From positions 239,636 through 303,635 of IMG/VR virus record IMGVR_UViG_3300042868_005134: a stretch of 64,000 nt of DNA. One strand, written 5' to 3'. Source of the stretch: a virus. The notes beneath the pieces are model-generated. The model was not told where the DNA came from. It ran no database searches and worked only from the letters and a program-made list of their open reading frames with translations. Below are positions 6,486-31,273 of this stretch, piece after piece. Within the stretch, counting starts at the first letter, position 1, and every line of letters starts with the position of its first letter. The position numbers and the translations under genes were made by a program.

Positions 6486-6514
6486 ACTTGCTCCTGTTAT
6501 TTGCTATAGTATAT

Positions 6515-6543: not shown

Positions 6544-6560
6544 TTGGATTTGGCTACTAA

Positions 6561-11045: not shown

Positions 11046-11512
11046 GAAACCTCTGACTTGCCTTTGGCAATTGGAACTACGTTAATATAACCGGCACCTC
11101 TACTAGTGTCCAGACCTTCCTCGCCTAGCATGTTTCTAACAATGTCACGGAACCAACGATCTACAATCTCTTCGTCCGGGTCACCATCGAAACCGTATCC
11201 AGCTTGTTTCAATTGTAACACAAAAAGTTCATTCCAGTCAAGCTCAAAGAAGCCATTACGGATATTATCTTTGTTAACGTGCGTATCCAAAACACTTACC
11301 CACGGCTCGCCTTTGGCAGTAGCACGATCTTTTGGTGTCATCTTGGCAACGGCTTCTGCCTTCTGCGCTGCCTCGGCGGCATCGAGTGCGGTTTTAGCAA
11401 TCTTGGCAGAATCTTCTGCGGCTTTTAATGACGCTTCTGCTTCCTCTTTAGCCTTGGCCTTTATCTTATCGATGCCGGTTAAGCGTTCAATTATGTCTGT
11501 TATTTTCCCCAT
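11042..11512 (-). CDS. Hypothetical protein with Ala/Lys coiled coil
   Basis: A 156-residue protein. Residues about 12-60 form a long Ala/Lys/Glu-rich helix (KAKEEAEASLKAAEDSAKIA) likely to be a coiled coil. The C-terminal half is globular (ELDWNELFVLQLKQAGYGFDGD) and ends in a basic, Ser-rich tail. I use the ATG at 11512, which has a GGGGGAA site 5 nt upstream; 11524 is possible. It overlaps the queE 3' end. Function unknown. Confidence 0.65.
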   Translation of the reverse strand: MGKITDIIERLTGIDKIKAKAKEEAEASLKAAEDSAKIAKTALDAAEAAQKAEAVAKMTPKDRATAKGEPWVSVLDTHVNKDNIRNGFFELDWNELFVLQLKQAGYGFDGDPDEEIVDRWFRDIVRNMLGEEGLDTSRGAGYINVVPIAKGKSEVS

Positions 11513-12360
11513 CCGTTCCCCCATAAGTCTACGTGTAGTCTTGGGCTATAGTAATAGCCTCTTTTTAATGCTTCGTCGGCAATGTGTATACGATTACCAT
11601 CATACACACTGACAACACCGCCCACAGGCATAACGTACACCGGTCCTACAAAACCTGCGTCACGATATGCCATCACAGCTTGATCAACTTCGTCAAAGTG
11701 TTCTAACTGATCCACTACGAATTTCAAATATACAAAACCGTATTGTTGATAGTCTGCTACCACATCGGGTTTAACAGCATCATTCCATTTTTCTCCGCTT
11801 GCGCTTAATTTAGGACTTACGCTAAATGTAATTTCTCTAAACGAGTGATACCAATTATCTAAAAATGTTTTAAATTCTTCATGTAACGGCTGGGTACCGT
11901 TTGTTTCAAATGTTAGATTTTTTAAATCCTGCATTTTTGTATGATTCAGTAATGCGGGATATAACTGTTGCCAGCCCAGCAAAGGCTCACCGCCTGTGAT
12001 AACAAGATGTACATCGTTACCGTTGCTTTGTACCCAAGTATTTTTATTAGGTGTTAATCCCAGTATCTTAGATACAATCTCGTCAATGGTATAATAAGGA
12101 CTTAGTTCTTTGAATGCCGGATGCCAACTAGCATAGCTATCACAACCTGTGTTAACTAAGGGTAATTGTTCAAATGTTTTGTAAAGGTGAACACTGTTAG
12201 CAATAGGTTCTACCTCGTTAGTTAGTTCGCCTTTAGGCATGCCAAATCCAGCACATTTAAAATTACATCCGAATGTTCTTAAGAACACACTAGGTACACC
12301 AATAAATCTACCTTCGCCTTGTGCTGAATAAAATACCTCACTGATTTTTATCTTGTCCAT
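11500..12360 (-). CDS. queE: 7-carboxy-7-deazaguanine synthase, radical SAM, variant cysteine spacing
   Basis: A 286-residue QueE-type radical SAM enzyme: YSAQGEGRFIGVPSVFLR near the start, VITGGEPLL in the middle (the SAM-contacting GGE motif), FETNGT, and SPKLSASGEKW. QueE turns 6-carboxytetrahydropterin into 7-carboxy-7-deazaguanine, the first 7-deazaguanine of the queuosine and DNA-modification routes. The cluster cysteines are unusual: Cys32 and Cys36 (CNFKC) are followed by a 36-residue insertion before GCDSYASW, whose Cys73 sits where the third cysteine should be. The start at 12360 gives the standard N-terminus. FolE, QueD and DpdA are encoded nearby. Confidence 0.88.
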   Translation of the reverse strand: MDKIKISEVFYSAQGEGRFIGVPSVFLRTFGCNFKCAGFGMPKGELTNEVEPIANSVHLYKTFEQLPLVNTGCDSYASWHPAFKELSPYYTIDEIVSKILGLTPNKNTWVQSNGNDVHLVITGGEPLLGWQQLYPALLNHTKMQDLKNLTFETNGTQPLHEEFKTFLDNWYHSFREITFSVSPKLSASGEKWNDAVKPDVVADYQQYGFVYLKFVVDQLEHFDEVDQAVMAYRDAGFVGPVYVMPVGGVVSVYDGNRIHIADEALKRGYYYSPRLHVDLWGNGWGK

Positions 12361-12589
12361 CTTCTTTCTCTTTCTTAAATTCATTGTACGAAGTAGTAAT
12401 ACTATCCCATACTGCCCACTTAAACAACCAAGACAACAAGGATGTTAAACCTAATACTAGCAATAAAGCACCAATAATTCCAGGTAGTAGAAATCCTATA
12501 ATAACAGAAGTCATAGCAATAACATAAACCTTTTGCCAAGGTTTCCATTTACTCCATTGCCATACTACAAAATTGTAAACGTCTTTCAA
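12338..12589 (-). CDS. Small membrane protein (83 aa)
   Basis: An 83-residue protein with two closely spaced hydrophobic segments (about residues 22-42 and 43-58: VIAMTSVIIGFLLPGIIGAL, LLVLGLTSLLSWLF), an aromatic N-terminus and a charged tail (EFKKEKEDGQDKNQ). It is probably an inner-membrane hairpin. It overlaps the queE start by 23 nt and the upstream gene by 4 nt. Function unknown. Confidence 0.7.
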   Translation of the reverse strand: MKDVYNFVVWQWSKWKPWQKVYVIAMTSVIIGFLLPGIIGALLLVLGLTSLLSWLFKWAVWDSITTSYNEFKKEKEDGQDKNQ

Positions 12590-13790: not shown

Positions 13791-13903
13791 TATATTTCCT
13801 TAATGTAGTATTGTGAAGCAGGGTATGTTTGTTGTAGCCATTCTAACAAGCCTTCTTCGACTGGCAAGCGAATGCTTTCAAACTTGTTTGTAATATATTT
13901 CAT
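13790..13903 (-). CDS. Tiny protein (37 aa) coupled to folE
   Basis: A 37-codon frame, MKYITNKFESIRLPVEEGLL and onward to YYIKEI. The ATG overlaps the folE stop as ATGA and the stop overlaps the next start as TAATG, which argues for real translation. No motif or membrane segment; function unknown. Confidence 0.5.
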   Translation of the reverse strand: MKYITNKFESIRLPVEEGLLEWLQQTYPASQYYIKEI

Positions 13904-14646
13904 CGCGGAGCAAACTCCTGTTGCATCTTAATGTTGTCAAAGAATTCTTTCTTAGTACCCATGTCTGTATTAAATGCGCCTTTGAGTACTGTAGTCTGTG
14001 TCAATGAGCTATGTGCCATAATGCCACGATTCTCACAGCATCCGTGTGTGGCTTGAATATACACTGCTACGTTTTCTGATTCAGTAGCTTTGCTAATCTC
14101 ACGGGCAATGTCGTTACAAAGTTCCTCCTGGAGAGTACCGCGTCGAGCACACCACTGAGCGATCCGTGTGTATTTCGAGAGACCAATAAGTTTATTAGCG
14201 GCAATGATACCGATGTAGGCAACCCCAGATACAGGCTGGTGATGATGAGAACACATACTTCGAAGTTCACTACGTACCACAAGCATACCTTCGTAACGGT
14301 CCTCTGAATCATTGGGAAATGCTGTTGCGTCTGGTGCTCTTTCATATCTTCCTGCCATAATTTCATTAAAATACATTTTAGCAAGACGTCTTGCGGTGCC
14401 TTTACTGTTGGGATCATTCTCGCGATCAATTAGTAACTTATCTAAGATTTGTTCGAATGCCGGTGTTGCTTCGTCAATTAGTTTTTCTACGTCGCCTTCG
14501 TGTAGATAATCACTGATGTTATCGCCAGCCCAAAACCGTTTGTTATCACGTTTCATCTTAAAGCGAAGATGATCTCCTAGATATGCTTCTTGATAACCGC
14601 CATCACCTGCCATTGCGTCAAGTGCTGTTTCTTTTTTATCTGTCAT
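13900..14646 (-). CDS. folE: GTP cyclohydrolase I
   Basis: A 248-residue FolE. SMCSHHHQPVSGVAYIGI supplies the zinc Cys and the His pair, GLSKYTRIAQWCARR and TLQEELCNDIA match the conserved GLSK/R-x-Q-x-QE blocks, and HGCCENRGI gives the second zinc Cys. It converts GTP to dihydroneopterin triphosphate, the entry point to folate and 7-deazaguanine. With QueD, QueE and DpdA in the same window the second use is likely. A Ser replaces Glu in the usual CEHH motif. The gene has its own sigma-70-like promoter. Confidence 0.93.
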   Translation of the reverse strand: MTDKKETALDAMAGDGGYQEAYLGDHLRFKMKRDNKRFWAGDNISDYLHEGDVEKLIDEATPAFEQILDKLLIDRENDPNSKGTARRLAKMYFNEIMAGRYERAPDATAFPNDSEDRYEGMLVVRSELRSMCSHHHQPVSGVAYIGIIAANKLIGLSKYTRIAQWCARRGTLQEELCNDIAREISKATESENVAVYIQATHGCCENRGIMAHSSLTQTTVLKGAFNTDMGTKKEFFDNIKMQQEFAPR

Positions 14647-14689
14647 TTTATTTTCCTATGTTAAGGCAGAGGTCATTGCCATTTGTATT

Positions 14690-14719
14690 AGTATACACTA
14701 TTATTTAGGTTTTTGTCAA
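14690..14719 (-). promoter_or_regulatory. Sigma-70 promoter for folE
   Basis: Minus strand TTGACA (14719-14714), 18-nt spacer, TATACT (14695-14690), about 44 nt before the folE ATG. The -35 box lies inside the 3' end of the upstream dehydrogenase gene. Confidence 0.7.
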
Positions 14720-15502
14720 CCTTAGTAATGTATTTTTCTTAACTGCTTCTTTCAAAACATTTAAATTTATATCTAGTGTTTCTGCGTACTTTAATAAGGC
14801 ACTAGTATCTTTGGGAAAACACATACCGCCGAATCCGTTGTACCCATCTGGACCCGGTACTTGGGTATGGCTGATGTTAATGCGATTGTCTTTGGCAACC
14901 ATGCCTCGAATTCTATTCCAGTCATGACCTTGCGCTTTTGCCAATTGACACATCTCGTTCATAAAAACTACCTTGGTTGCTAGAAACGAATTAATAATAT
15001 ATTTTACCATGGCAGCTTCGCCAATAGTACAGAACACTGAATCTACATTTGGTTTGGTATATTTTATAACACGTTCTGCTTCTCTTTGATAGGCCAGTGT
15101 GCTACCGCCAATAATAGCCCAGTTTTCTTTGGCATAATCCTGAGCAGCATTAGCGGCAGTTAAAAATTCAGGCACATGTACTAGATTGGAATATTGGGTT
15201 TGTAAATATTCGTATACATTGGGAGTAGCTGTCACTTTTGAAATGATGACCCCTTTAAAGTTTTTTAAATTAGTCAACGTAGATACTAGGGGCAGAGTAT
15301 TACAACTTCCATCATCATTCATGGGACTAGGTACACAAACAAACACAGCTTCGGCATCTGTTAAATCAGCGTATGTGCTGTTAAAACCTTTACTAGGATC
15401 TGTATCGATAATTACCAGGTTGGCAAATCCTTCATAGTTGGAGGCAATAGCACTACCAACAAAGCCGCATCCCACGATACCAATTTTTGGCAGATCAAAC
15501 AT
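14705..15502 (-). CDS. UDP-glucose/GDP-mannose dehydrogenase-like protein, short form
   Basis: A 265-residue protein. The start MFDLPKIGIVGCGFVGSAI carries the NAD-binding GxGxxG. FNGFGGMCFPKDTSAL near residues 225-240 holds the catalytic Cys of the family. UDP-glucose 6-dehydrogenases oxidise a sugar nucleotide to the uronic acid. The protein ends about 30 residues after the Cys motif, so the usual C-terminal UDP-binding domain is missing; the enzyme may be specialised or need a partner. I chose the ATG at 15502 because upstream in-frame codons give a non-homologous extension. Confidence 0.8.
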   Translation of the reverse strand: MFDLPKIGIVGCGFVGSAIASNYEGFANLVIIDTDPSKGFNSTYADLTDAEAVFVCVPSPMNDDGSCNTLPLVSTLTNLKNFKGVIISKVTATPNVYEYLQTQYSNLVHVPEFLTAANAAQDYAKENWAIIGGSTLAYQREAERVIKYTKPNVDSVFCTIGEAAMVKYIINSFLATKVVFMNEMCQLAKAQGHDWNRIRGMVAKDNRINISHTQVPGPDGYNGFGGMCFPKDTSALLKYAETLDINLNVLKEAVKKNTLLRLTKT

Positions 15503-15776
15503 TATTTTCTTTCTCCCATTCACCTCTACCATGATCCCAGTGTCGATTATCGTAAAAATTAAAATGTACACAATAACCAAACAGGCCTGCTTCTAAGTCT
15601 AGTCCCGCATGACTTTGACGTACAGTCCAATTGAACATGAGAGACATTAATGTGAAATCTCGAGTAACTTCTAATTCAATATGTTTATTTTTAAATGGAG
15701 TATTGTATGCACGGCACCACAAATTCTTAAAGGTGTTACTCCAAGGGTTGCGGATGTTAAAGTTAAATGAAATCAT
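15495..15776 (-). CDS. Conserved phage protein (93 aa)
   Basis: A 93-residue, aromatic-rich protein (MISFNFNIRNPWSNTFKNLW, then HFNFYDNRHWDHGRGEWE). Its look matches a small protein common in aquatic T4-like phages. The His/Asp-rich end could bind metal. It overlaps both neighbours by 4-8 nt. Function unknown. Confidence 0.7.
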   Translation of the reverse strand: MISFNFNIRNPWSNTFKNLWCRAYNTPFKNKHIELEVTRDFTLMSLMFNWTVRQSHAGLDLEAGLFGYCVHFNFYDNRHWDHGRGEWEKENNV

Positions 15777-15955
15777 ATGTAATCTACTGATTTTTTAGTT
15801 CGCAGTTTTCTACACTCGGCTTTAACTTCGGCTGGATAGTCGGGATGAAATTCTGACAAACTACAATCGTAGATTCTGCCTCCATCATCCGGCACTGTTA
15901 CTAGTATTAAGAATGCCAATACTAGAAATATTAGTGCTACTACTGCTTGTTTCAT
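15773..15955 (-). CDS. Small N-terminally anchored membrane protein (60 aa)
   Basis: A 60-residue protein with an N-terminal hydrophobic segment (VVALIFLVLAFLILVTV, residues 4-20) and a short charged tail with two Cys (CSLSEFHPDYPAEVKAECRK). It is probably anchored in the inner membrane with the tail outside; no lipobox is evident. ATGA overlaps join it to both neighbours. Confidence 0.65.
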   Translation of the reverse strand: MKQAVVALIFLVLAFLILVTVPDDGGRIYDCSLSEFHPDYPAEVKAECRKLRTKKSVDYI

Positions 15956-16272
15956 GAATTGATATCTCCTTGATATCGTGGAATCATATGTATGTGGGGA
16001 TATTTACCGTCTTGCCCGGCAATATCTCCCACACTTTGAACTAGGTTAAATCCCTGCCACTTTTCAGATTCGATTCCGTCGTAGCCCCACTTATAGGCTG
16101 CTCTGTAAGTTTCGAAGAGACAGTCCATTGATTTTTGGGTAGGCACAAAACACAAATACCCTTCACAGGGTGCTGACGGGTCTTTAAAAATCCAAAACTT
16201 TGTTGTTCTGTATTCGATTTCTTTCCAAGGAGCGCTGCCATCATTTAGTGCCTTTTCGATATCTGTTGTCAT
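15952..16272 (-). CDS. HIT-like (histidine triad) protein
   Basis: A 106-residue protein. The C-terminal GFNLVQSVGDIAGQDGKYPH-IHMIPRYQGD region resembles HIT-family proteins, where an H-x-H-x-H-x2 motif hydrolyses nucleotide phosphoramidates. Here only PHIHMIPR remains, with two of the three histidines, so catalysis may be altered or lost. It is encoded among small proteins downstream of a tail-type gene. The assignment is moderate. Confidence 0.55.
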   Translation of the reverse strand: MTTDIEKALNDGSAPWKEIEYRTTKFWIFKDPSAPCEGYLCFVPTQKSMDCLFETYRAAYKWGYDGIESEKWQGFNLVQSVGDIAGQDGKYPHIHMIPRYQGDINS

Positions 16273-16278
16273 TACAAT

Positions 16279-16482
16279 TTACGATACTAGACTTTGTGCT
16301 AATATTTTAAGTTCGTCATCGGTCATAAAAAACTGATAAGTTGAGGTCATGTCAACTTCTCCGTTTATATTTTTACATTCTTGTATAAACTCAAGAGCAT
16401 TTAGTGTAGCTGGGTTTACACATTTCCAGCTTTTAACCCTCAGTCTAAATCCTGCTGTATCTTTAATTATGCTTTCTTTCAT
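16279..16482 (-). CDS. Hypothetical protein (67 aa)
   Basis: A 67-residue protein with a basic N-terminal half (GFRLRVKSWKCVNPATLNAL) and an acidic helical end (FFMTDDELKILAQSLVS). It has no known motif and overlaps the upstream gene as ATGA. Confidence 0.6.
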   Translation of the reverse strand: MKESIIKDTAGFRLRVKSWKCVNPATLNALEFIQECKNINGEVDMTSTYQFFMTDDELKILAQSLVS

Positions 16483-16718
16483 TGTAGTGTCCTTTTGTCT
16501 TCTCCGGCTAGACTGTTAATAAGTTTTTCAGCCCATTCGGGTTCTTCTTCCAGTAATTCTTCTAAGTCTACTTGACGACTTTGTTCGAACAGCTCACCTG
16601 AATGTGCCATTTTGGTAATTTCAGCAATCATTTCTTCAAGCTCTTCTTGCGAGCCTTCAAAATCGTCAAAAGCGCCTGGCGCAAATTCGATAGTGAGTGG
16701 TTTCTTTTCATCAGTCAT
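16479..16718 (-). CDS. Small acidic conserved phage protein (79 aa)
   Basis: A 79-residue protein beginning MTDEKKPLTIEFAPGAFDDF and continuing as Glu-rich helices (EELEEMIAEI, DLEELLEEEPEWAEKL). The N-terminal phrase and acidic helices match a small conserved protein of aquatic T4-like phages. Function unknown; a protein-protein adaptor is a guess. Confidence 0.7.
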   Translation of the reverse strand: MTDEKKPLTIEFAPGAFDDFEGSQEELEEMIAEITKMAHSGELFEQSRQVDLEELLEEEPEWAEKLINSLAGEDKRTLQ

Positions 16719-17196
16719 AGTCGCCTTTTATACGTTCAAAAGTTTTATATTTTTCCAAAGCATTGATATATTCATCAAACAGTTTCTTTAGCTTAGGATG
16801 CTTCTTCTCTAGTATAACATCTCTTTCAGGAATACACAAGACTTTTTCGATTGTGTTTAACCGTTCTTCTAAATCTCTATCATTTATAACAACTTTGCCT
16901 TTGACAGTTAAAGTTGCATCTTTTTCCAAAACAATTTCGTCTTTGCCAGATGGCACAGTCATAATAGGTTTGCCATTGCTATTATTAAATTGAGTGCTTG
17001 AATTAGTCCAACTAGTACCATTCAATCCGCTTGTTAAAAACTGACCACTGCTGCCACCACCTAGACTTGTATTATTAGTAGTATAAACTGTTCCAACTGT
17101 TAGTGGTGTTGTAGCAAGTGGTATTGTACCGTAGCCAACACTCACTGTACTGCCAACAAACCCATTACTGACGACGTTGTTCAAGGTATTGCTCAT
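16711..17196 (-). CDS. Tail-type protein with C-terminal helix (161 aa)
   Basis: A 161-residue protein. The first half is Gly/Ser/Thr/Asn-rich and resembles fibre repeats (TTNNTSLGGGSSGQFLTSGL). The second half has a LTVKGKVVINDRDLEERLN motif, then a helical end. Such proteins occur in aquatic T4-like phages beside structural genes and may decorate the tail or head. It overlaps the upstream cupin gene by 32 nt. Confidence 0.6.
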   Translation of the reverse strand: MSNTLNNVVSNGFVGSTVSVGYGTIPLATTPLTVGTVYTTNNTSLGGGSSGQFLTSGLNGTSWTNSSTQFNNSNGKPIMTVPSGKDEIVLEKDATLTVKGKVVINDRDLEERLNTIEKVLCIPERDVILEKKHPKLKKLFDEYINALEKYKTFERIKGDYD

Positions 17197-17644
17197 TGTG
17201 TATCCATTTGTTCTTTACAAGAAAGCCCCATTCTCTTTTTTGTGGTCCTGGCATAAACAATGTCCACGCCGTTATATTAGGATCAAGCTCAATGCGATGA
17301 TATGATGTGGCTTTACAAATACGGAAATGTCCAGGCCCCCGCCACTTTGCTATCTCAGTTATCTTTCGACCGTCTGAATTAAATTGTGGAATCCATTCCC
17401 AATAGCCGCCTGACAGTATTAAAGTAAAATAAGGCCATGGATGATCATGTACGTCATCGGGATCCGATTTAAGAAACTTGTGTAGAAACACATTAAAGGG
17501 AAAACGGTTTCTGTCTTTAAGGAAGATATAATAACGTTCGAGATATGGCTCTTCACTAACTCTGTCCATAATAATTCTTTTTCTGTCATGCTGTTCTAAC
17601 CAAGCAAAAAACTTATTCTTTATCTTTTGGATTATCATAATCAT
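17165..17644 (-). CDS. Cupin-like protein
   Basis: A 159-residue protein with a cupin-type metal site: DDVHDHPWPYFTLILSGGYWE (His, His and later Tyr/Glu) near residues 70-90, and ATSYHRIELD as the second cupin block. Cupins range from sugar isomerases to dioxygenases and small-molecule sensors, so the reaction is open. A basic N-terminal helix (KIKNKFFAWLEQHDRKR) precedes the barrel. It overlaps genes on both sides by 32 nt. Confidence 0.65.
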   Translation of the reverse strand: MIMIIQKIKNKFFAWLEQHDRKRIIMDRVSEEPYLERYYIFLKDRNRFPFNVFLHKFLKSDPDDVHDHPWPYFTLILSGGYWEWIPQFNSDGRKITEIAKWRGPGHFRICKATSYHRIELDPNITAWTLFMPGPQKREWGFLVKNKWIHNEQYLEQRRQ

Positions 17645-18002
17645 CCTTTACAAGTGTATACACTGTTCGAAAATTTCTTAATGCGATTTCTAGTCCAGGA
17701 TACTGTTTGCACATATTTTGAACACGTTGCCAGTCCGGAAACAAGTCTACAAATTCTACAGAGCTTCCCCAACTAATTTGATAATCGGTGTTAAGTGTAA
17801 TAGTATCGCTAGATAACGTTGTATATGTAACCCCACTTCCACTGCCAGTTATTGATATAGTGTTCATATTTGTATCAATATAATAACCAGACGATGCGTG
17901 TAAATCAGAAGGTAACTCTATAGTAAACGTGTCTCCCAATGCTATAAAAGACTCAGTTGGCAAGTCGCTTAATAAGTTCTGTTGCTGAGAAGAATTGCTC
18001 AT
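17613..18002 (-). CDS. Hypothetical virion-type protein (129 aa)
   Basis: A 129-residue protein. Residues 25-85 are a beta-rich Ser/Thr segment (FTIELPSDLHASSGYYIDTN), followed by a helical end with FPDWQRVQNMCKQYPGLEIALRNF, a pattern known from structural proteins of T4-like phages. It overlaps the glycosyltransferase end by 50 nt and the cupin start by 32 nt. Confidence 0.6.
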   Translation of the reverse strand: MSNSSQQQNLLSDLPTESFIALGDTFTIELPSDLHASSGYYIDTNMNTISITGSGSGVTYTTLSSDTITLNTDYQISWGSSVEFVDLFPDWQRVQNMCKQYPGLEIALRNFRTVYTLVKDDYDNPKDKE

Positions 18003-19053
18003 GTAATACCTCTGTTTGTTTTTTTAATTGTGGCAAAAACTGTTCGTAATGATTCATATACTGTATGATTTTATTACACACTGAAGGTCTTGCGAAGTCG
18101 TATGCTTCAAAACTTTCAGTCCACTCACTAGGATACTTGAATGTGTCAAATGCCATCTCGCTGTAGCTTAATCTATCCGGCACCATAGGAATGGCACCTA
18201 CCACAGCACCTTCGTACCAGCTAATGCCCAGCGTCTCTTGAAGATTTGCACTAAACACTATTTTAGCACGACCTAACAGTTTGTGATATTCATGTTTGTC
18301 TAGTTGCTGATCTTGACAAACGACAAATTCGTATTGAGGTAGGTGCGTAGCCAAGTCACGAAAAATGTCAACTTGCTTCTCCGGAGCAATGCGATGAGGA
18401 AACAAAATTAGATCACGCTTGGGCGTAGTCCAGTAGTTGTCCAAAGTATCTTGCATATACTCCATGGGCCAGCCTGTTCGCACAATCTTTCCATCGGTAA
18501 TTAAATCAGACTTATCCTCTTCGTGCCACGGATTTTCTGTTTTATAACCATCTTCTAATAAGTTATCTACAAACATATCAATATGGAACTTGGTAGCAAA
18601 ATAGTTGTGATCAAATGCGTGGAAAAAACTCTTCTCAGCATGTCTTACCCATTTCCTCTTACCAACAAGACGTCCTAAAAAATCTTGTGGATCATATGAT
18701 CCAGCATGCCATAAACCATGTGTAACTACCGGAATGCCCAGCAGTTCACTCATGTATTTGAGATTGATGACGCCAGGGTGCCAAGCATCAGTAAATATAA
18801 AATGATCACCAGGGCTAACTGATCCGGAGCAAAATAAGCGACCCATCTGCTCCACTTGACTAGCCTTGTATATATTAGTGCCGCCAAAGTTGAGAAATGC
18901 GCCAGGAGTGGTAGCACTAGGAATGTCCGTAGGACCTGATATAATGTTGACATTGTGTCCTGCCTTTCGTAAGAGAGCAGGTACATGGCGCTTCCATTGC
19001 CCCGTGTACCTTGTCTCTACTGCTTCTAGATCAACGAGAAAAACTTTGCTCAT
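17953..19053 (-). CDS. GT-B glycosyltransferase
   Basis: A 366-residue GT4-like glycosyltransferase. The true start is MSKVFLVDLEAVETRYTGQW at 19053; a longer in-frame extension overlaps the upstream gene and lacks family sense. The Rossmann-like C-terminal half carries LILFPHRIAPEKQVDIF and the sugar-nucleotide-binding block ANLQETLGISWYEGAVVGAI, with two Glu of the E-x7-E motif. It transfers a sugar from an NDP-sugar to an unknown acceptor: DNA bases, virion protein or a cell-envelope glycan. The window also makes a GDP-deoxysugar, a possible donor. Confidence 0.82.
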   Translation of the reverse strand: MSKVFLVDLEAVETRYTGQWKRHVPALLRKAGHNVNIISGPTDIPSATTPGAFLNFGGTNIYKASQVEQMGRLFCSGSVSPGDHFIFTDAWHPGVINLKYMSELLGIPVVTHGLWHAGSYDPQDFLGRLVGKRKWVRHAEKSFFHAFDHNYFATKFHIDMFVDNLLEDGYKTENPWHEEDKSDLITDGKIVRTGWPMEYMQDTLDNYWTTPKRDLILFPHRIAPEKQVDIFRDLATHLPQYEFVVCQDQQLDKHEYHKLLGRAKIVFSANLQETLGISWYEGAVVGAIPMVPDRLSYSEMAFDTFKYPSEWTESFEAYDFARPSVCNKIIQYMNHYEQFLPQLKKQTEVLHEQFFSATELIKRLAN

Positions 19054-19318
19054 TGCGTGGACCGCGATAGTTGTTATTTCCACCGCTTCGATTAAATTCG
19101 CCACGCGGCTTGCGAGTACCATCCCATGGCTTCTTTGGACGAGTACTGTAATAGAAATTGTTCCAAATTTGACTATTACGATTGTAAAGATTTGCCTCGT
19201 TAAAGTCACACATCTCGAAACGACAAAAATCGTGAAACTTTTCCAAGTCGTCGAAAATTTTAACAATATCAGGACGGTTTTCTAAGTAGTTAACGTCTTT
19301 GTAATTATTCTTAGCCAT
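19031..19318 (-). CDS. Basic protein with Arg/Gly-rich tail (95 aa)
   Basis: A 95-residue protein beginning MAKNNYKDVNYLENRPDIVK behind an AAGGA site. Residues 20-50 are globular (IFDDLEKFHDFCRFEMCDF); the last 35 are a Pro, Gly, Asn and Arg-rich basic tail (RPKKPWDGTRKPRGEFNRSG) that looks disordered and nucleic-acid binding. The start at 19318 is chosen because an upstream in-frame codon lies inside queD. It overlaps the glycosyltransferase start by 23 nt. Confidence 0.7.
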   Translation of the reverse strand: MAKNNYKDVNYLENRPDIVKIFDDLEKFHDFCRFEMCDFNEANLYNRNSQIWNNFYYSTRPKKPWDGTRKPRGEFNRSGGNNNYRGPRNEQSFSR

Positions 19319-19331
19319 TATAGCTTTCCTT

Positions 19332-19727
19332 TTAATACTTAATAAATGAACCATTTTCTCCGTCTTCGGAGACTTCAATCCAAACCTCACGGTCGGGATA
19401 CCTTTGTGAGACTTGAGCGTGTAAATCATCGCTCATCATTTCGCAACTTTTGTAATCTAGCGACAAAACACCTTGTGTGCTAGAATACAGTTTTTCAAGC
19501 CATCGCTTGAATTGTATAAATTCCACATCTCTGTCATTGTGGGTGACACTAAGCCATACCCTAAAATGAAAAATATGGCGATGAGGATTAGCCAAAAACG
19601 AAACATCATATTCATCTCCTGTTGCTAAGTTTGGATCTGTTGCGGCTGCTGGATATTTGTGAATACCTTCTTTACGAAAGGTTACCCAAATCATTTTGTT
19701 AGGTCTAATATCTTGTTTAATAATCAT
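19332..19727 (-). CDS. queD: QueD-like 6-carboxytetrahydropterin synthase (6-pyruvoyl-tetrahydropterin synthase fold)
   Basis: A 131-residue protein. The zinc His of the T-fold family can be placed in EGIHKYPAA and in PHRHIFHFRVWLSV (H-x-H), and KSCEMMSDDL and WIEVSEDGENGS match the later conserved blocks around the SCE and VxE motifs. Such enzymes turn dihydroneopterin triphosphate from FolE into 6-carboxytetrahydropterin for QueE. The usual catalytic Cys before the His pair is not obvious, so the precise chemistry is less certain than for FolE and QueE. It lies five genes from dpdA in the same run. Confidence 0.68.
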   Translation of the reverse strand: MIIKQDIRPNKMIWVTFRKEGIHKYPAAATDPNLATGDEYDVSFLANPHRHIFHFRVWLSVTHNDRDVEFIQFKRWLEKLYSSTQGVLSLDYKSCEMMSDDLHAQVSQRYPDREVWIEVSEDGENGSFIKY

Positions 19728-19948
19728 TCTTTTCTGAACCTTGGAGTTAAAATCTCTGCATCAACTTTATTTAAAAATTGACAATTTTCTAATCTTACTA
19801 ACAGTTCATCTAACGAACCAGTATGATCTTCAACTATAACTCTAATTGGTTTAGTAGTGTCTGTTCTGTCTTCTAGAATGTATGTTAGTTTTCCATTTGC
19901 AGCTAAAATTTGCTCGCTGAAATATTCTTGTAAATTAATTAAATTCAT
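19724..19948 (-). CDS. Hypothetical protein (74 aa)
   Basis: A 74-residue protein starting MNLINLQEYFSEQILAANG at the ATG that overlaps the upstream stop as ATGA. It has an alpha/beta pattern (KLTYILEDRTDTTKPIRVIV) with no known motif. It sits between queD and a conserved 172-residue protein and is coupled to both by overlaps. Confidence 0.6.
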   Translation of the reverse strand: MNLINLQEYFSEQILAANGKLTYILEDRTDTTKPIRVIVEDHTGSLDELLVRLENCQFLNKVDAEILTPRFRKE

Positions 19949-20463
19949 GTTGGTGTATCCTGTGTATATTGATCCCAATAGGTAAATTTGTCTTTACTCA
20001 TTAGGCTTTGTAGGTGATGAGTCCATACGCCAGGGTTAGTAGCACCCCAAGTACGATCATCTAGTTTGAGTGTTGCGTTATAGTTAAGTTGACTAATGTA
20101 AGGCAACTTTACACTAATCATAGGAATAAACCTATCTTGTTCGCAGTAACCGCTTTCGATTACGCCTTCAATATGTTCTACACCGAAGTCTAAAGCGACC
20201 CAGTAATTTTCTTTAAGACATCCGAGTATAACTGTATCCCATACCGCATATTCTTCTTGTGTCATTGCTTTTGGATTGAAGCTCTGACTAGTACCAAAAT
20301 AAATTTGCTTAATGTCGATGTCTCTGTTTGCTTGTTGTAGTATTTCCTCTAAAGGAGGAGTGCCAACAACAAACAAAGTTTTCATACCATAAGCAATAGT
20401 ATGCTCGACCTCATACCCTGTAAAGTAAACAACATTCTGTCGTTCTTCAGTGTTTAGTCCCAT
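19945..20463 (-). CDS. Conserved phage protein in the queD-dpdA run (172 aa)
   Basis: A 172-residue protein: VVYFTGYEVEHTIAYGMKTL at the start, then IYFGTSQSFNPKAM, NYWVALDFGVEHIEGVIESG and a C-terminal ISQLNYNATLKLDD region. I associate this with a protein found near 7-deazaguanine genes in aquatic T4-like phages, but I cannot assign a reaction. There is no PP-loop (SGGxDS) motif, so it is not QueC. Confidence 0.65.
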   Translation of the reverse strand: MGLNTEERQNVVYFTGYEVEHTIAYGMKTLFVVGTPPLEEILQQANRDIDIKQIYFGTSQSFNPKAMTQEEYAVWDTVILGCLKENYWVALDFGVEHIEGVIESGYCEQDRFIPMISVKLPYISQLNYNATLKLDDRTWGATNPGVWTHHLQSLMSKDKFTYWDQYTQDTPT

Positions 20464-21335
20464 TTAATATAACCTCTGCTGTAACCGCTTGGACGATCCA
20501 TACCATCCGCAAACGCTTGCTGCCATTCAGTGTTACGATTGTAACACTTTGTCCAGAAACTATCAACCTCAAGATAGCCGTTTTCAATCATGAACACTGC
20601 TTCTTTCATACATTGGAAAAATCCATCAGTGCGTGGACTTGGCCGAACTGTAGTACAGGCTTTCCAAAGTTGAGCTTGAGCTTCCTCACGACTAACTGCT
20701 TTGCCAACACCGTCAATAATAAGGGCATTGTTATTTAGGTTGATGTCTATACCTAACGCATATTTGCCACTCAAGTCGATAACTATATCATAACTTTCGC
20801 TAGTACCAATCAATAGTTTATCACCCCACAGTTCCGTATTGCTAGACCCTAGTACATTGATGTCTTGTTTGCGTAATATCAATCTGTGATAAGCAACCCA
20901 CGCAAGGAATCCACTACCAATAATCAATATCTTGCCATTTCTTTTATTAATTTCGCCTGCGGCTTGTTCCACTACATTGATACCGCAAGCAACCGGTTCT
21001 AGTATATAGCGAGGATGTGCTTCGGGTACTAGGACATACTCTTTAGATCTTACATTATAAATATCTGCGTATGCGGGTTCGCCTCGGGTGGCAACAAAGT
21101 CTCCAAAGTTGACGTCTTTAATATTAGCACCAATTCCAATAACTTGTCCAAGTCCTTCGTGCCCTTGCATGTGTAAAGGTAACGGCCCAAAGTCTCCTAC
21201 CATCATGTCGATATCACTACGACATACACCAGTCATAACACTTCGAACACAAATTTCATCTTCAGTTAACGGATCTACATGAAATTCGATTTCAGTAAAA
21301 CTACCATTGCCTGTTGTTTGTAAAATTCTATTCAT
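20454..21335 (-). CDS. Zinc-type medium-chain alcohol dehydrogenase-like oxidoreductase
   Basis: A 293-residue MDR-family protein. TGVCRSDIDMM gives the zinc Cys and Asp, MQGHEGLGQVIGIG the GHE motif of the GroES-like domain, and ILIIGSGFLAWVAY the Rossmann glycines. This branch includes glucose and sorbitol dehydrogenases. It is shorter than the usual 340 residues, mainly in the C-terminal half. It is coupled by ATGA overlap to the MocA-like oxidoreductase. The substrate may be a sugar nucleotide or a deazaguanine-pathway intermediate; no direct evidence. Confidence 0.8.
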   Translation of the reverse strand: MNRILQTTGNGSFTEIEFHVDPLTEDEICVRSVMTGVCRSDIDMMVGDFGPLPLHMQGHEGLGQVIGIGANIKDVNFGDFVATRGEPAYADIYNVRSKEYVLVPEAHPRYILEPVACGINVVEQAAGEINKRNGKILIIGSGFLAWVAYHRLILRKQDINVLGSSNTELWGDKLLIGTSESYDIVIDLSGKYALGIDINLNNNALIIDGVGKAVSREEAQAQLWKACTTVRPSPRTDGFFQCMKEAVFMIENGYLEVDSFWTKCYNRNTEWQQAFADGMDRPSGYSRGYIKWD

Positions 21336-22207
21336 AGTTTTTCTATTTGTTCGTGAATCCACATATCTTGCTGATATTGATTGTTCCAGAACTCATTATT
21401 ATTTAGGTTTTTAACAGCAGTCTCTACCATAGTTTTGTAGGCAGATTCTGGACACAATCCTAGCTCATGTCTTATGGCACTATTTCTCATGCTAAACGCA
21501 ATACTACTGTCGTCATGATCTAGATTAGTTTTCCAGTTGGCACTTAGTATCCACGTAATGTTCTTATTCTCGAATTCTAAATGACAAAAGTCGTCTACGT
21601 CATACGTGCCGGTATGATTGACTACACCGTAATCTGTACTGTCAATATCTTCTAGTTTATAGTTTTGAAGTGATTGTGCTTTAAGTTTAACACCATGTTT
21701 ATAGTCTGTTAACGCACAATAGTAACTAAGCATATGAGGAATTAAGTCTCTGCTAACTCCGCCAAATGCTAATTCTTTTGTAGTAAACCAACTACCGGGT
21801 TGTGGAATACGATTAGCGTTATTCCAACGAACATATACTCGTTCGCTTTGATCAGCTTGACTTTTGAATAGTTTAATCTCGTCTCTGTACTGATTATTTT
21901 TAACCATCATGAAACGTGTGTCGGGAAAGTCTTCTACTAGACAGAACCAACACTTGGCATCTTGTACACCTGGCTTTTCAATTAGAACAATTTTACACTT
22001 GTTAGCAATAGTTCTTGCTACCAGTTCATGTGTAAAATTTGGTGTACAAATAACGACAATATCATATTCGCCTGTGACAATATCAGCAGTTTTAAATGTT
22101 GCGTTCTTTTCCGGATTAGAATCCACAGTATCGATTTCATAGCCGAGGCCGGTGAATACGGAATGATATAGTTGTCCTATACCCATTCCTACAATTAAGG
22201 CCTTCAT
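21332..22207 (-). CDS. Gfo/Idh/MocA-family oxidoreductase
   Basis: A 291-residue protein with an N-terminal Rossmann motif (ALIVGMGIGQLYHSVF) and IVVICTPNFTHELVA, then the EKP catalytic segment IVLIEKPGV, typical of Gfo/Idh/MocA sugar dehydrogenases. These oxidise or reduce sugars or sugar nucleotides using NAD(P). The gene forms a tight pair with the MDR dehydrogenase at 20454. Confidence 0.85.
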   Translation of the reverse strand: MKALIVGMGIGQLYHSVFTGLGYEIDTVDSNPEKNATFKTADIVTGEYDIVVICTPNFTHELVARTIANKCKIVLIEKPGVQDAKCWFCLVEDFPDTRFMMVKNNQYRDEIKLFKSQADQSERVYVRWNNANRIPQPGSWFTTKELAFGGVSRDLIPHMLSYYCALTDYKHGVKLKAQSLQNYKLEDIDSTDYGVVNHTGTYDVDDFCHLEFENKNITWILSANWKTNLDHDDSSIAFSMRNSAIRHELGLCPESAYKTMVETAVKNLNNNEFWNNQYQQDMWIHEQIEKL

Positions 22208-22455
22208 TCTTTTTTACTTTCTTCGTATTGTTTAAACAATCTAGTAACCGGTTCCATTCGTTCTTGGAACACATCCGGCGCACCTATGGCCGCACGTTCT
22301 AAATCCCATTCACTAGGGAAATGTCGCAAGATACTATATGCTTCTCCGCGAACTTTTTTAGGAACTCTAGGATAGTCTTTGGTATTGTGGGCTATATCCT
22401 GTAAGAATCTCTTGGCCCACATTACGGAACGATATCTTTCATCTGGTAATGTCAT
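22204..22455 (-). CDS. BPSL0761-like small protein next to dpdA
   Basis: An 83-residue protein. LPDERYRSVMWAKRFLQDI, then PRVPKKVRGEAYSILRHFPS and an ERAAIGAPDVFQERM segment match the BPSL0761-like family of small proteins found in proteobacteria and their phages. The family has no proven function. It overlaps dpdA by 17 nt and the MocA gene by 4 nt, so it probably belongs to the same functional unit. Confidence 0.6.
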   Translation of the reverse strand: MTLPDERYRSVMWAKRFLQDIAHNTKDYPRVPKKVRGEAYSILRHFPSEWDLERAAIGAPDVFQERMEPVTRLFKQYEESKKE

Positions 22456-24148
22456 GATGTATTTCGTTTTCTAGTTGATCTAGTTTGTCAATTTGGTCTT
22501 CGGCAAATTCGCCATCTTCACTTGATTGTACACTCTCTTCATCTTCTTCGTCAAATAGATTGGCAAAGTGTGTGCTAGCATTAACTGTTTTTTTACCAAT
22601 AGCGCCCCGTGTTCCTGGAATAGCTTGCCAAAATTTATCAAAGCCGTCAATGATAGCATCAGCTGTTGCTCTATCAGGCGCACTAAAAATAGCATCCACT
22701 ACGTCTTTAAAGTATACACGTTCGAATCTTTCATCTACTAGCATGGCAGGACATAGACCAGCATCATACTGTCGATTAGCTTCTTGTACACTATTCAAAT
22801 GTAGCCACACATTATGACCCATCATAATTGCGTATGTGAAACTATCCCACGATGTTTTACCTTCTTTACCTATCTTATTTAGGTCGCCTGGTCCGTAGAT
22901 ACAAATATCTTTAACTTGTACGCCATCCATCAAGGGGCTGGTAGTAAACGATTTAAAGTGTCCATCTTGTACAACAACATCCTGAAACAATCTAGTATCT
23001 TTACTATACTTCTTATTGTCTAAACTAGGCAACATGCGATATAACCATTTTTGTCTATCTACAATTTCAGTTTGTACATAAATCTGTCCGTTGGCAGTGG
23101 CAAGGAACGGACTGGCACAGTCAAAGCTGATTGTAAACTTGGGATTGTGGTACTTACGAACAGCACGTTGAATGTCTGTCAGCAGTAATGCCCACTCTAA
23201 TTTACTTGTACCCAAGAAGTGCATCCAGTCTTGATGACCTTCTTCTAGTAATCCATCAAACTTTAGAGCTACTAGTCTGCGTAGAACTAAATCTACGTCA
23301 CACATATTCTGTCCACCCATAGCCCAGCCATTAAACGGTCTTTCATATTTTGTTGGATCGCAGAAGTCTTTCATTTGTTGATACCAATCTTCTGCCTGTG
23401 CGTGATTCTCACCTTGTAGAACGTTTAAGAACTTACAAGCACCTGTACGATGTTTGATAAAGTATTCATTGTTGTATTTGGTAGCGGCAACAGCTTGTTC
23501 ATAACTAGCAATGCCACTGTTCTTGGCACCCACTGGACTGCGTCCAACCCATGCTGGAATATCAAGTACCATGCCGTAATCCATTAAGGCATCCATCCAA
23601 GCTAATACTTGTTCACGTTTCTTTTGTGCCGCATCTAGTTTTGCTTGAAAAAGTTTAACATGGTCAATTTTAGTATACTTGACATTTCCGTTCTTGTCTG
23701 TTTTAGGATCACCAGTTGGGTGTAATTGTGGAACAAGTTCAACACCCTTGGCAACTGCTTCTGCCATGCGTTGTGCTACTTCCTCACCTACTGGATCGTT
23801 CCATTCACCTTCCCACACGCCTTTACCAATTTGGAAACCTCCAGAGTCGCCTAATACCCAACTAGTTGAGCGATCTCTATTGCGAAACATATCTTCGCTT
23901 GGATCTGGCTTAGTCAAGTCTAAGTTAGCGTGTCCAGCTGAATACAAACAATGGTCAAAGTAAAATGTCGCATTGGGATTCAAATAGTTCATGGCTTCAA
24001 TGCCTAGTGGTCCAAAGCTGGCAGGTATGCGAGCAGGGTCTACATAGTTATTGTAGCGTTGCTTTCCGATATACGTACTATAAAAGCCAGATGTTGCCGG
24101 CAAAAAGTAGGCATAATCATTTTGATGTGCGGTTAAATTTTTATTCAT
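22439..24148 (-). CDS. dpdA: DpdA-like DNA (7-deazaguanine) transglycosylase, TGT fold
   Basis: A 569-residue TIM-barrel protein of the tRNA-guanine transglycosylase superfamily. VLGDSGGFQIGKG places the base-binding Asp at 101, the GWAMGGQ block (about 274-280) and HFLGTSK match TGT loops, and SFDCASPF supplies the nucleophilic Asp at 343. The C-terminal zinc motif of bacterial TGT (C-x-C-x2-C) is absent and there is an acidic tail, as in phage DpdA proteins that insert 7-deazaguanines into DNA. With FolE, QueD and QueE nearby, DNA modification against host restriction is the best reading. Confidence 0.82.
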   Translation of the reverse strand: MNKNLTAHQNDYAYFLPATSGFYSTYIGKQRYNNYVDPARIPASFGPLGIEAMNYLNPNATFYFDHCLYSAGHANLDLTKPDPSEDMFRNRDRSTSWVLGDSGGFQIGKGVWEGEWNDPVGEEVAQRMAEAVAKGVELVPQLHPTGDPKTDKNGNVKYTKIDHVKLFQAKLDAAQKKREQVLAWMDALMDYGMVLDIPAWVGRSPVGAKNSGIASYEQAVAATKYNNEYFIKHRTGACKFLNVLQGENHAQAEDWYQQMKDFCDPTKYERPFNGWAMGGQNMCDVDLVLRRLVALKFDGLLEEGHQDWMHFLGTSKLEWALLLTDIQRAVRKYHNPKFTISFDCASPFLATANGQIYVQTEIVDRQKWLYRMLPSLDNKKYSKDTRLFQDVVVQDGHFKSFTTSPLMDGVQVKDICIYGPGDLNKIGKEGKTSWDSFTYAIMMGHNVWLHLNSVQEANRQYDAGLCPAMLVDERFERVYFKDVVDAIFSAPDRATADAIIDGFDKFWQAIPGTRGAIGKKTVNASTHFANLFDEEDEESVQSSEDGEFAEDQIDKLDQLENEIHHDITR

Positions 24149-28852: not shown

Positions 28853-31273
28853 TTAGAATCGGAAAGCTGATCTAATTCGTTTAAGAATTTCGTCGTCTTC
28901 GGATTTAACATCTTCGAAAGTTGACCTATCAACATTGGGAGCACCTGCTGAAATTGGACCTGAAGATGGCCTTGTTCTGCTCCTATCTCTGGCATCGCCT
29001 TGAGCTTTAATTAATGCCGCAGCCGCTTCTGGATATGCTGGATCCCCAGGGTTTACGACCTTACCATTGAATGTGATAGGACCATCTGGTTTGCCCATTC
29101 GTAAAGTACCATCTACAGATTGTTTAGATTGAGTACTTGTACTTGTGTTTGTACTTGTTCCGCTTGTACTTGCGGGTACGCCAGCTGCCGGACTTGCTGC
29201 CTGATTGCTAGTACTAGCTGCAGCCACTTTATCTAATCCTTTTAACGCACTTTCTAATCGTGTTTTTAGTTCAGGAGGTAACTGAGCCATCATGTCAGTA
29301 TTTTTCTGATATTGTAATATTACAGCCATGTGCTTCTTGATAAGTTCTTGATCAGCAGGATCCATCGAAGGAAGTTCATCGTCCTTGAATGTATCATACA
29401 AAGCCTTGCCCACATCGTATGCGGTCCATGCTGCCATGCCTGCTCCTACTATCAGTGCCGCAGGCCCAGCCAACGCAGAGGCTCCAGCCCGCGCCGCAAT
29501 TTTCCTGCCAATACCCGAGGCCCCGCCCAGCTTGCTGGTAAACTTAGCTAACTTACCTGGTGCAGTAGGCGACCCAGATCGGCCTCCTAGTCCAAAAGGA
29601 TCATTGGCGCGACTAAGAGCAGGATTAGGGTTTCGAGCCATTGCCATTCTAGCTTGTGTGCCAGCATCACGTACTCGACCGCCTGAATTGGGCGGCACAT
29701 ATATGTCTGCTTCAACTAGTAGACTCCAAATCTCCATTTGTTCTTGTAATGTAAAATTAGAAATATTTTCTAGAACTAGCGCATCGTCAGGATGTATACT
29801 TTCTGATTTGATTTTATTTTTTGCGAGAATGGCTTCGATTGCCTTGATTGAATTTTCTAATTCTGTAGTATTAGTTGTGTTTACTTTAGATCCTGCGCTT
29901 TGACCTGCACCAGCTGTAGGTTTTGCTCCACCCACTGGATTACCAGTCTTAGGATCATACCCTAACGCAGTCATTCTTTTAACAAACTCTGGGTTTCCTA
30001 AACTTACTGTACCGGGGCCTTGACCCGGCTTAACATTATAGGCATAAGCCAATCCTGCAATGTTTGCGTACTCGTCTGTACTAACCTTGCCGCTTAAACT
30101 TCTAATAGCCGCTGTAGTTAATGGACCGTCTTTTCCATCTAAATCTAACTTTTGTCCGTGTTTTGTATTTAGGTAGTGCTGTATAGCTTTAGTTCCAGGA
30201 TTGGCCGGTCCTACTTTACCTGCTGCAGGACTTGCGGATTGTCCACCTGGTTTTGTAGTACTCCCTGCTGCGTTAGCAGACATGGCTTTACCTAGTTCAG
30301 CATCGGTACGATCTACATTATCACCGTATTCTTTTTCTCGAGCCGCCTGTGCGTTAGCAGACATGGCTTTACCTAGTTCAGCATCGGTACGATCTACATT
30401 ATCACCGTATTCTTTTTCTCGAGCCGCCTGTGCGTTAGCAGACATGGCTTTACCCAGTTCAGCGTCATCTCTATCTGCTTGATTAGGATCAACTTTTTGA
30501 CCAGTTGGCGCTGCCAGTTTATCCACGGCCTTTTGTGCGGCACCTAATGCTTGTATAACAGCTGGATCATCTATATCTGCCAGTTCTGCCATTAACGATT
30601 TAATTTCAGCAACTTCACTTTGATACTTACCCGCTGTTACACCTGTTGCTGGATTTCTAACAGGTTCGCCTGTGCCCAGTGTCACTTTTTCGTACAACTC
30701 ATAGCTAAAACTTTCAACTAGTGTACGGGATATAGATCCGTCGAATGAAATAGACTCCATAGTGCTGCCACTAATCTTGGCCACTAGGTCATTTAATCTT
30801 TTTAATCTAGGAGCAACAAACGCATCACTGCTTTGTTTACCCTGTACATTGGCACTTTGTTGTTTTACAGCACTTGATGCTTTGTCGTTGGCAGCTTGCG
30901 AATCTTTGTCTAGGCCAAATTTACCTGTACCTATTAAGCCACCTAGTGCTGAAGTCTTTGCTGTACCTGGTACTAATCCTAGTTTTGCCAATGATTGTGT
31001 ATCAGCTTCTCTTGCTGTTGCGGAAATGTCATAGTTACTCTGCCCACGATCGCCCGATGGCATACTCTGTTTTCTAACAAAGTATCCGCTTACAGGATCA
31101 TACAGACCGGGCAGGTTTTCCTTCCATGCTAGGTCGTTTAAAATACCAGCACGTTTTTGTTCGTCTTTTTCTTGGCCAACAGCAGCCTGTATGTCTTTCA
31201 TAGTTATGGCTTCATTTAAAATCTGTCTAGATTCAATCTTGTCCATTCTAGCTATAAGTGCTTTCAAGTCCAT
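28853..31273 (-). CDS. Large low-complexity phage protein with peptidoglycan-binding-like domain
   Basis: An 806-residue protein. It starts MDLKALIARMDKIESRQILN, which resembles the N-terminus of the protein at 31392 and carries L-x-E sites of the kind cut by T4-like prohead proteases. Residues about 270-335 hold a 27-residue repeat (ELGKAMSANAQ-AAREKEYGDNVDRTDA). Next is a domain like peptidoglycan-binding domains (IQHYLNTKHGQKLDLDGKDG-PLTTAAIRSLSG). A hydrophobic Gly/Ala stretch (AGASALAGPAALIVGAGMAA, about residues 605-625) and a Ser/Thr/Pro-rich C-terminus follow. I suspect a head-core or injected protein, with no proof. Confidence 0.7.
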   Translation of the reverse strand: MDLKALIARMDKIESRQILNEAITMKDIQAAVGQEKDEQKRAGILNDLAWKENLPGLYDPVSGYFVRKQSMPSGDRGQSNYDISATAREADTQSLAKLGLVPGTAKTSALGGLIGTGKFGLDKDSQAANDKASSAVKQQSANVQGKQSSDAFVAPRLKRLNDLVAKISGSTMESISFDGSISRTLVESFSYELYEKVTLGTGEPVRNPATGVTAGKYQSEVAEIKSLMAELADIDDPAVIQALGAAQKAVDKLAAPTGQKVDPNQADRDDAELGKAMSANAQAAREKEYGDNVDRTDAELGKAMSANAQAAREKEYGDNVDRTDAELGKAMSANAAGSTTKPGGQSASPAAGKVGPANPGTKAIQHYLNTKHGQKLDLDGKDGPLTTAAIRSLSGKVSTDEYANIAGLAYAYNVKPGQGPGTVSLGNPEFVKRMTALGYDPKTGNPVGGAKPTAGAGQSAGSKVNTTNTTELENSIKAIEAILAKNKIKSESIHPDDALVLENISNFTLQEQMEIWSLLVEADIYVPPNSGGRVRDAGTQARMAMARNPNPALSRANDPFGLGGRSGSPTAPGKLAKFTSKLGGASGIGRKIAARAGASALAGPAALIVGAGMAAWTAYDVGKALYDTFKDDELPSMDPADQELIKKHMAVILQYQKNTDMMAQLPPELKTRLESALKGLDKVAAASTSNQAASPAAGVPASTSGTSTNTSTSTQSKQSVDGTLRMGKPDGPITFNGKVVNPGDPAYPEAAAALIKAQGDARDRSRTRPSSGPISAGAPNVDRSTFEDVKSEDDEILKRIRSAFRF
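30271..30473 (-). repeat. Tandem 81-nt repeat (27 aa), about 2.5 copies
   Basis: Near-identical 81-nt units begin at 30271, 30352 and 30433 (the last partial) inside the 806-residue gene. Each encodes the 27-residue unit containing ELGKAMSANA and EKEYGDNVDRTDA. The first two copies are almost perfectly conserved in DNA, which points to recent duplication. Confidence 0.85.

Follow-up and report, generated by a model that had tools for sequence, protein, structure and literature searches.

The locus described here raises the question of which base a phage places in its DNA when its 7-deazaguanine genes do not include QueC. Phages 9g, CAjan and nt-1 carry 7-deazaguanine DNA modification through the FolE–QueD–QueE–QueC–DpdA set (Hutinet et al. 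2019, PMC6884629). The giant phage analysed here, represented by a window of 64,000 nucleotides (positions 239,636 to 303,635 of IMG/VR record IMGVR_UViG_3300042868_005134), likewise encodes FolE, QueD, QueE and a DpdA with the fold of tRNA-guanine transglycosylases (TGT), but neither QueC nor QueF was found; instead it carries a QueD-fold paralog and a glycosyltransferase (GT), and by sequence its DpdA is of another subfamily (Table 1). On balance, we favour a pathway in which the paralog and the GT take the place of QueC, and 7-carboxy-7-deazaguanine (CDG) is processed, inserted by DpdA and glycosylated.

Gene set and absence of QueC

The record comprises 383,411 bases and, as comparison of its first and last 3 kb revealed no terminal repeat, may be incomplete. 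Neither a search of the whole record with the QueC profile PF06508 nor inspection of its open reading frames for QueC-like PP-loop proteins gave a match, the part outside the window being covered by stretches that together span it and were analysed one by one, not joined. The absence of QueC, originally noted for the window, thus extends to the record. No member of the QueF family was found in the record, and no QueC or Gat-QueC of the preQ0 branch in 17 related large viral contigs.

FolE and QueE were both correctly recognized in the original prediction, as judged from their family matches and conserved residues. FolE retains C132, H135 and C203 across 73 homologs, which we take to be the zinc ligands; QueE retains C40, C44 and C81-D82, and probably starts at an ATG near 12360. 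The gene for the true QueD is located some 23 kb beyond the end of the window. With the transglycosylase, these genes support the proposed 7-deazaguanine DNA-modification set without QueC, in which CDG is the end of the shared pathway. Neighbouring genes in the run from DpdA through the paralog overlap, in most cases by ATGA. Conservation across viral contigs, more than 590 for each anchor gene, shows that the set is more than a chance arrangement.

Table 1. Genes of the modification locus and the separate QueD gene.
Feature	Position	Strand	Evidence or occurrence
QueE, 7-carboxy-7-deazaguanine synthase	11500-12384	(-)	phrog_2076 E 1.5e-52; TIGR03365 1.1e-12
FolE, GTP cyclohydrolase I	13900-14646	(-)	PF01227 E 8.8e-40
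Short nucleotide-sugar dehydrogenase-like protein	14705-15580	(-)	PF00984 1.3e-20; TIGR03026 1.9e-35; 51/154 loci
Cupin, 'cysteine dioxygenase' PHROG, frequent neighbour	17165-17644	(-)	phrog_4786 9.2e-37; 87/154 loci
GT-B (GT4-like) glycosyltransferase, 366 aa	17953-19053	(-)	EX7E motif E273...E281
Small Arg/Gly-rich ORF between paralog and GT	19031-19318	(-)	conserved in 113/154 loci
QueD-fold paralog (phrog_17812, unknown function), candidate CDG-processing enzyme	19332-19727	(-)	fold, PHROG match
Small lineage-specific ORF, ATGA overlap at both ends	19724-19948	(-)	
Core member p19945, 172 aa, no function assigned	19945-20463	(-)	107/107 distinct loci
Zinc-type alcohol dehydrogenase-like protein, accessory	20454-21362	(-)	PF08240 1e-8; 38/154 loci
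Gfo/Idh/MocA-type oxidoreductase, accessory	21332-22207	(-)	PF01408 8e-6; 39/154 loci
Small protein, no function assigned, overlaps DpdA gene	22204-22455	(-)	homologs in 58/154 viral loci
DpdA-type transglycosylase (TGT fold, 569 aa), putative DNA-guanine exchange enzyme	22439-24148	(-)	structure, motifs
True QueD, 184-aa ORF	G000:C1:326556-327110	(-)	PF01242 E 1.5e-15

The DpdA-type transglycosylase

The DpdA protein has no match by sequence to Pfam, PF01702 included. Its AlphaFold2 model (pLDDT 87) retrieves TGT structures as all of its best 14 PDB matches (top match 5lpq, E 9.7e-8), and D101 (in GDSGGFQ) and D343 (in FDCASP) are invariant. The protein is accordingly placed in the TGT/DpdA superfamily, with a modelled TIM-barrel TGT fold and putative acid/base and nucleophile aspartates assigned by motif, which bears out its initial description as DpdA-like. 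Comparison with the DpdA2 profile gave remote similarity only (probability 70, P 3.9e-5, motifs collinear), and phrog_10773, the DpdA2 family of the nt-1 type, was not matched; judged from sequence, the protein belongs to a subfamily distinct from DpdA2. A PDB sequence search with the DpdA and GT profiles returned no decisive match.

A QueD-fold paralog in relatives without QueC

The product of the gene at 19332 had been called QueD-like, a description that holds for its fold but not for its identity. The AlphaFold2 model (pLDDT 91) has QueD/PTPS (T-fold) structures as its best 14 PDB matches; PF01242 is not matched, the catalytic Cys and Asp-His of QueD are absent, and similarity to phage QueD in profile comparison is weak by sequence. 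Invariant in the paralog are H23, H49, H51, H63, R66, E69, S94, C95, E96 and E121. Assignment as QueD itself was rejected, as the protein falls outside PF01242 and a separate PF01242 QueD is encoded in the record and in all ten named phages with the paralog (weakly matched in D479, E 0.001), so that the paralog is not needed in that role. FolE is likewise present in all ten.

Occurrence of the paralog alternates with that of QueC. None of the ten named paralog phages has a clear QueC, D479 encoding a divergent PP-loop/QueC-like protein. A clear QueC (E 1.7e-51) was present in just one of 28 related records, that of Vibrio phage 2.275.O; this phage combines the DpdA subfamily of the window with QueC and QueF and lacks both paralog and GT. 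The same exchange is seen among phages with DpdA2: Menderavirus and nt-1 have QueC and neither paralog nor GT, and ACP17, X1 and BUCT-ZZ01 have paralog and GT and no QueC. A QueC-like match in X1 was read as a PP-loop protein of NAD-synthetase-like type, and three PP-loop matches at environmental GT loci as TilS; all were rejected as QueC. Because relatives that retain QueC are without the paralog, the latter looks, on this distribution, like a branch enzyme acting on CDG in the place of QueC. In five of the named phages (phiST, RHph_I1_18, Bakedbeans, Ahp1 and D479) the paralog occurs with no detectable homolog of the window's GT and can therefore do without it; the DpdA types tested were not found in these five either.

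A glycosyltransferase adjoining the paralog

Next to the paralog is a GT gene that the original prediction did not mention. Relatives of its product match PF00534 (8e-12) and PF13692 (2.5e-6) above the Pfam cut-offs, the window protein itself reaching only 0.09; assignment to the GT4-like GT-B enzymes comes through the glycosyl transferase group 1 domain of these relatives together with the EX7E motif. A likeness to the queuosine mannosyltransferase GTDC1 was unsupported, PF12038 not being among the Pfam matches.

In all 94 distinct environmental loci whose flanks were long enough, the GT is the paralog's neighbour, and the corresponding counts for other genes are 94/94 for DpdA, 107/107 for p19945 and 32/33 for FolE. 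Searches anchored on the GT recovered the paralog, FolE and a DpdA in all 74 full-flank loci, down to 22–25% identity, with the GT paired with two different DpdA subfamilies. These linkage counts are of viral contigs that are partly related to each other and not independent events. The p19945 protein has no Pfam or PHROG match, and in named phages occurs only in records of the PA5oct group and ACP17. The nucleotide-sugar dehydrogenase-like protein is possibly a donor-sugar enzyme.

Distant GT homologs (25–27% identity) are found in Xanthomonas phages PhiXhv-12, PhiXhv-15 and PhiXhv-16 and, from the match alone, in Erwinia phage Ep032. In PhiXhv-15, which bears FolE, the GT likewise has 7-deazaguanine genes, Gat-QueC among them, as well as PIG-L and Gfo/Idh genes as neighbours. 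The PhiXhv phages differ in having the archaeosine-type branch with Gat-QueC, together with a PIG-L deacetylase, and no phrog_17812 homolog was found in them; a search for environmental relatives of the PhiXhv GT found none.

The α- and β-glucosyltransferases of phage T4 modify hydroxymethylcytosine. The GT described here is likewise a phage enzyme proposed to decorate DNA bases, but its acceptor would be a 7-deazapurine. No member of the thymidylate-synthase/hydroxymethylase or TET/JBP families, which would make an acceptor of the T4 kind, was found in the record; as QueF is absent too, there is no familiar pyrimidine handle for a sugar.

Proposed pathway and alternatives

In the pathway that we favour, FolE, QueD and QueE would convert GTP to CDG. 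The paralog, keeping the zinc- and ring-binding frame of QueD and having lost its catalytic residues, would act on CDG to yield another base, the simplest possibility being decarboxylation to 7-deazaguanine. DpdA would exchange this base for guanine in replicated DNA, and the GT would then attach a sugar, although transfer before insertion is also conceivable; the resulting glycosylated 7-deazaguanine would protect the phage DNA against nucleases of the host. Once the carboxyl group is removed, C7 bears no evident oxygen or nitrogen to which a sugar could be attached by normal O- or N-glycosylation. More tentatively, the phage DNA may carry glycosylated 7-deazaguanine in which, if the paralog is a decarboxylase, the sugar is C-linked at C7, giving a C-glycosylated guanine analogue.

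Processing might also end one step earlier, with the paralog acting as DpdL, 2'-deoxy-7-deazaguanine (dDG) as the sole final base and the GT working elsewhere, for example on the host envelope. Cui et al. in 2023 reportedly gave the name DpdL to a predicted CDG decarboxylase with dDG as product, and the present gene set calls for just such an enzyme, one that processes CDG in phages lacking QueC; we know of no glycosyltransferase in that proposal. The phages that have the paralog without the GT fit such an ending, but one would hardly expect a GT that modifies the envelope to follow a pathway for DNA bases as strictly as the linkage counts indicate, across two DpdA subfamilies, and we regard dDG alone as unlikely. 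That the pathway stops at CDG, as originally proposed, with dCDG in the DNA and perhaps a sugar on its carboxyl, would agree with the absence of QueC from the record and with CDG being the last shared intermediate. It is at odds with the constant presence of a QueD-fold paralog that replaces QueC phylogenetically and with a GT that accompanies it at all environmental loci where linkage could be tested. Such an ending is improbable, and plain dCDG is probably not the end product. Since the paralog replaces QueC and the GT is linked to it, a processed, glycosylated derivative appears more likely as the final base, with phage rather than host enzymes as its makers.

Many bacteria encode QueC, and a host enzyme could supply the missing step, yielding dPreQ0 or dADG as in phages that encode QueC themselves. 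In E. coli, a phage DpdA was indeed shown to insert dPreQ0 when no QueC came from the phage (Hutinet et al. 2019, PMC6884629). Host supply would, however, leave unexplained both the strict linkage of paralog and GT and their mutual exclusion with QueC, and we consider it very improbable. Least credible is a role in host tRNA queuosine metabolism: the enzymes are homologous to those of queuosine synthesis and the TGT fold is common to both pathways, but the DpdA protein lies outside the PF01702 tRNA-TGTs by sequence and is related by profile to DpdA2, a subfamily reported in the DNA-modified phage nt-1 (PMC6884629), and a set lacking QueC is unable to provide preQ1 for tRNA.

Discussion

To our knowledge, the 7-deazaguanine bases described from DNA carry only small groups at C7, and no sugar-decorated guanine analogue of the kind proposed here was found in the literature searched. 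Among cultured phages, Pseudomonas phage PA5oct resembles the window's phage in DpdA (33% identity), paralog (52%) and GT (41%), and also encodes QueE, QueD and FolE. Synthesis and incorporation of deazaguanine in PA5oct were noted by Iyer et al. 2021 (PMC7824862), in the consulted part of which no mention of the paralog or GT was found. The reading as glycosylated 7-deazaguanine would be shared by hundreds of environmental relatives and by isolates such as PA5oct/Paride, ACP17 and Phosso.

If the proposed pathway is true, purine glycosylation would enter the field of phage DNA modification by way of a QueC-replacing paralog and a regularly associated GT. It would predict the DNA chemistry of the laboratory phages PA5oct, Paride, Callisto, ACP17 and Phosso, and would offer a testable reason for the existence of QueC-less pathways.

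The 7-deazaguanine genes

The identification of FolE and QueE was upheld by family searches and by conserved metal-site residues; between the first two cluster Cys of QueE and the third, C81 (‘GCDS’), lie ~36 inserted residues, an arrangement conserved across 51 sequences. Sequence-family searches gave no convincing match for the DpdA-like protein, whose assignment stands on two invariant Asp residues and on the tRNA-guanine-transglycosylase (TGT) fold of an AlphaFold2 model (pLDDT 87, 34-sequence alignment), the first 14 PDB matches being all TGTs (bacterial, human QTRT1, murine QTRT2 and archaeal). We take D101 (GDSGGFQ) and D343 (FDCASP), by motif, to be the general acid/base and nucleophile, respectively; in a profile comparison with DpdA2, a distinct nt-1-type subfamily (prob 70, P 3.9e-5), each of these two motifs aligned with its DpdA2 counterpart.

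Features in the window (239636-303635 of the 383,411-base record) and related phages; L stretches have internal coordinates
Feature	Location	Remark
MoxR-like AAA ATPase	5274-7652(-)	Adjoins VWA-like metallopeptidase-type gene (by eye); chaperone-like pair
QueE	11500-12384(-)	
FolE	13900-14646(-)	
Glycosyltransferase (GT)	17953-19053(-)	GT-B, 366 aa
QueD-fold paralog	19332-19727(-)	
p19945	19945-20463(-)	172 aa
DpdA	22439-24148(-)	
806-aa protein	28853-31273(-)	Imperfect internal repeats (DRTDAELGKAMSANAQAAREKEYGDNV)
QueD	Record 326556-327110	Outside window
UV damage endonuclease-like protein (by eye)	L001:364-1401(-)	Adjoins queD, same record
Two PF01242 proteins, PA5oct (MK797984.1)	169215-169715, 171534-171944	In addition to paralog
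Bakedbeans gp176 (Vibrio phage)	L027:11212-12363	Paralog as C-terminal fusion; N-terminal part ~260 residues
Vibrio phage 2.275.O set	L023:11905-17336	Window DpdA subfamily with QueC, QueF, COG1738-type transporter, amidoligase-like neighbour
Vibrio phage D479	L187:1336-2142(-)	Divergent PP-loop/QueC-like protein with Cys cluster; paralog in same phage
PhiXhv-15 (PV764602.1)	L185:9669-12903	GNAT protein also among Gat-QueC, PIG-L and GT neighbours

A QueD-fold protein in place of QueC

The modelled paralog (pLDDT 91; phrog_17812, function label unknown) has the QueD fold, its first 14 PDB matches being QueD or 6-pyruvoyl-tetrahydropterin synthase. Kept in ten divergent members are H23, H49, H51 and E121, which by motif fit the QueD zinc triad and ring-anchoring Glu. 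A reading as QueD itself was nevertheless not borne out: the paralog has no match to PF01242, the catalytic Cys and Asp-His have no counterpart in those ten members, and the record encodes a separate QueD. Phage QueDs keep these residues (C50 and D93-H94 in this phage’s own), and invariant residues new to the paralog are H63, R66, E69 and S94-C95-E96. Because the ten named paralog-bearing phages, all with FolE, also have a separate PF01242 protein (only weak in D479), the paralog is predicted to be a second enzyme, different from QueD.

The lack of QueC noted for the window extends to the full record, which may be incomplete: PF06508 has no match there, nor in 17 large related viral contigs. 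Among 11 named records, only Vibrio phage 2.275.O has a clear QueC, together with QueF and a homologous DpdA; paralog and GT are both absent, and its set appears to be a different C7 end step replacing them. DpdA2 phages are similarly split, Menderavirus and nt-1 having QueC without paralog and GT (Ps15 is cited for the Menderavirus side; PMC9025141), and ACP17, X1 and BUCT-ZZ01 having paralog and GT without QueC. This exchange among related and DpdA2 phages would place the paralog at the 7-carboxy-7-deazaguanine (CDG) branch point.

A linked glycosyltransferase

Overlooked originally was the GT, which has an intact EX7E motif and relatives passing the Pfam cut-offs for glycosyltransferase group 1; its start overlaps a small Arg/Gly-rich ORF. 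From DpdA to the paralog, adjacent genes overlap, several via ATGA. In the surroundings of 112 distinct viral-contig paralog genes, and scoring only those loci whose flank was long enough, GT and DpdA were each present in 94 of 94, p19945 in 107 of 107, FolE in 32 of 33 and QueE in 29 of 33; environmental loci are partly akin, and these counts are not independent events. p19945 is a core member of the set. The stretch separating DpdA from p19945 holds a Gfo/Idh gene and an alcohol-dehydrogenase gene, which recur in no more than roughly one locus in four; we treat them as accessory, perhaps for sugar or base tailoring.

Reverse searches seeded with the GTs of ACP17, PA5oct, Phosso and X1, reaching down to 22–25% identity, gave 74 loci >18 kb, all with paralog and FolE, 72 with the window DpdA family and two with DpdA2; none had QueC after TilS exclusion. 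The GT occurs in 19 GenBank phage records, 15 of them with the paralog; the other four are PhiXhv-12, PhiXhv-15, PhiXhv-16 and Ep032. In PhiXhv-15, with FolE elsewhere in the record, the GT adjoins a PIG-L deacetylase, a Gfo/Idh protein and a Gat-QueC fusion (PF06508 4.4e-49 plus GATase) annotated as glutamine-fructose-6-phosphate aminotransferase, a candidate glycosylated archaeosine pathway. Together with the paralog loci, this neighbourhood shows the GT family accompanying 7-deazaguanine genes of two different biosynthetic settings. Five named paralog phages have no detectable GT of the window family and neither of two tested DpdA families, so a pathway that lacks this GT can also make use of the paralog.

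Proposed pathway

DNA-modification pathways of this kind are already known (PMC6884629), and one account (PMC7824862) notes the PA5oct deazaguanine system; the literature searched yielded no case of QueC replacement combined with a regularly linked glycosyltransferase. No gene of the QueF, hydroxymethylase or TET families was found in the record to offer another acceptor or end step. FolE, QueD and QueE would make CDG, to be converted by the paralog, most simply by decarboxylation to 7-deazaguanine, a reaction consistent with the retained zinc/ring site and lost QueD catalysis; a DpdL proposal by Cui et al. in 2023 reportedly agrees. DpdA would insert the base and the GT would add a sugar, the natural guess being a C-glycoside at C7 should the carboxyl be removed, whereas a retained carboxyl could carry the sugar as a glycosyl ester.
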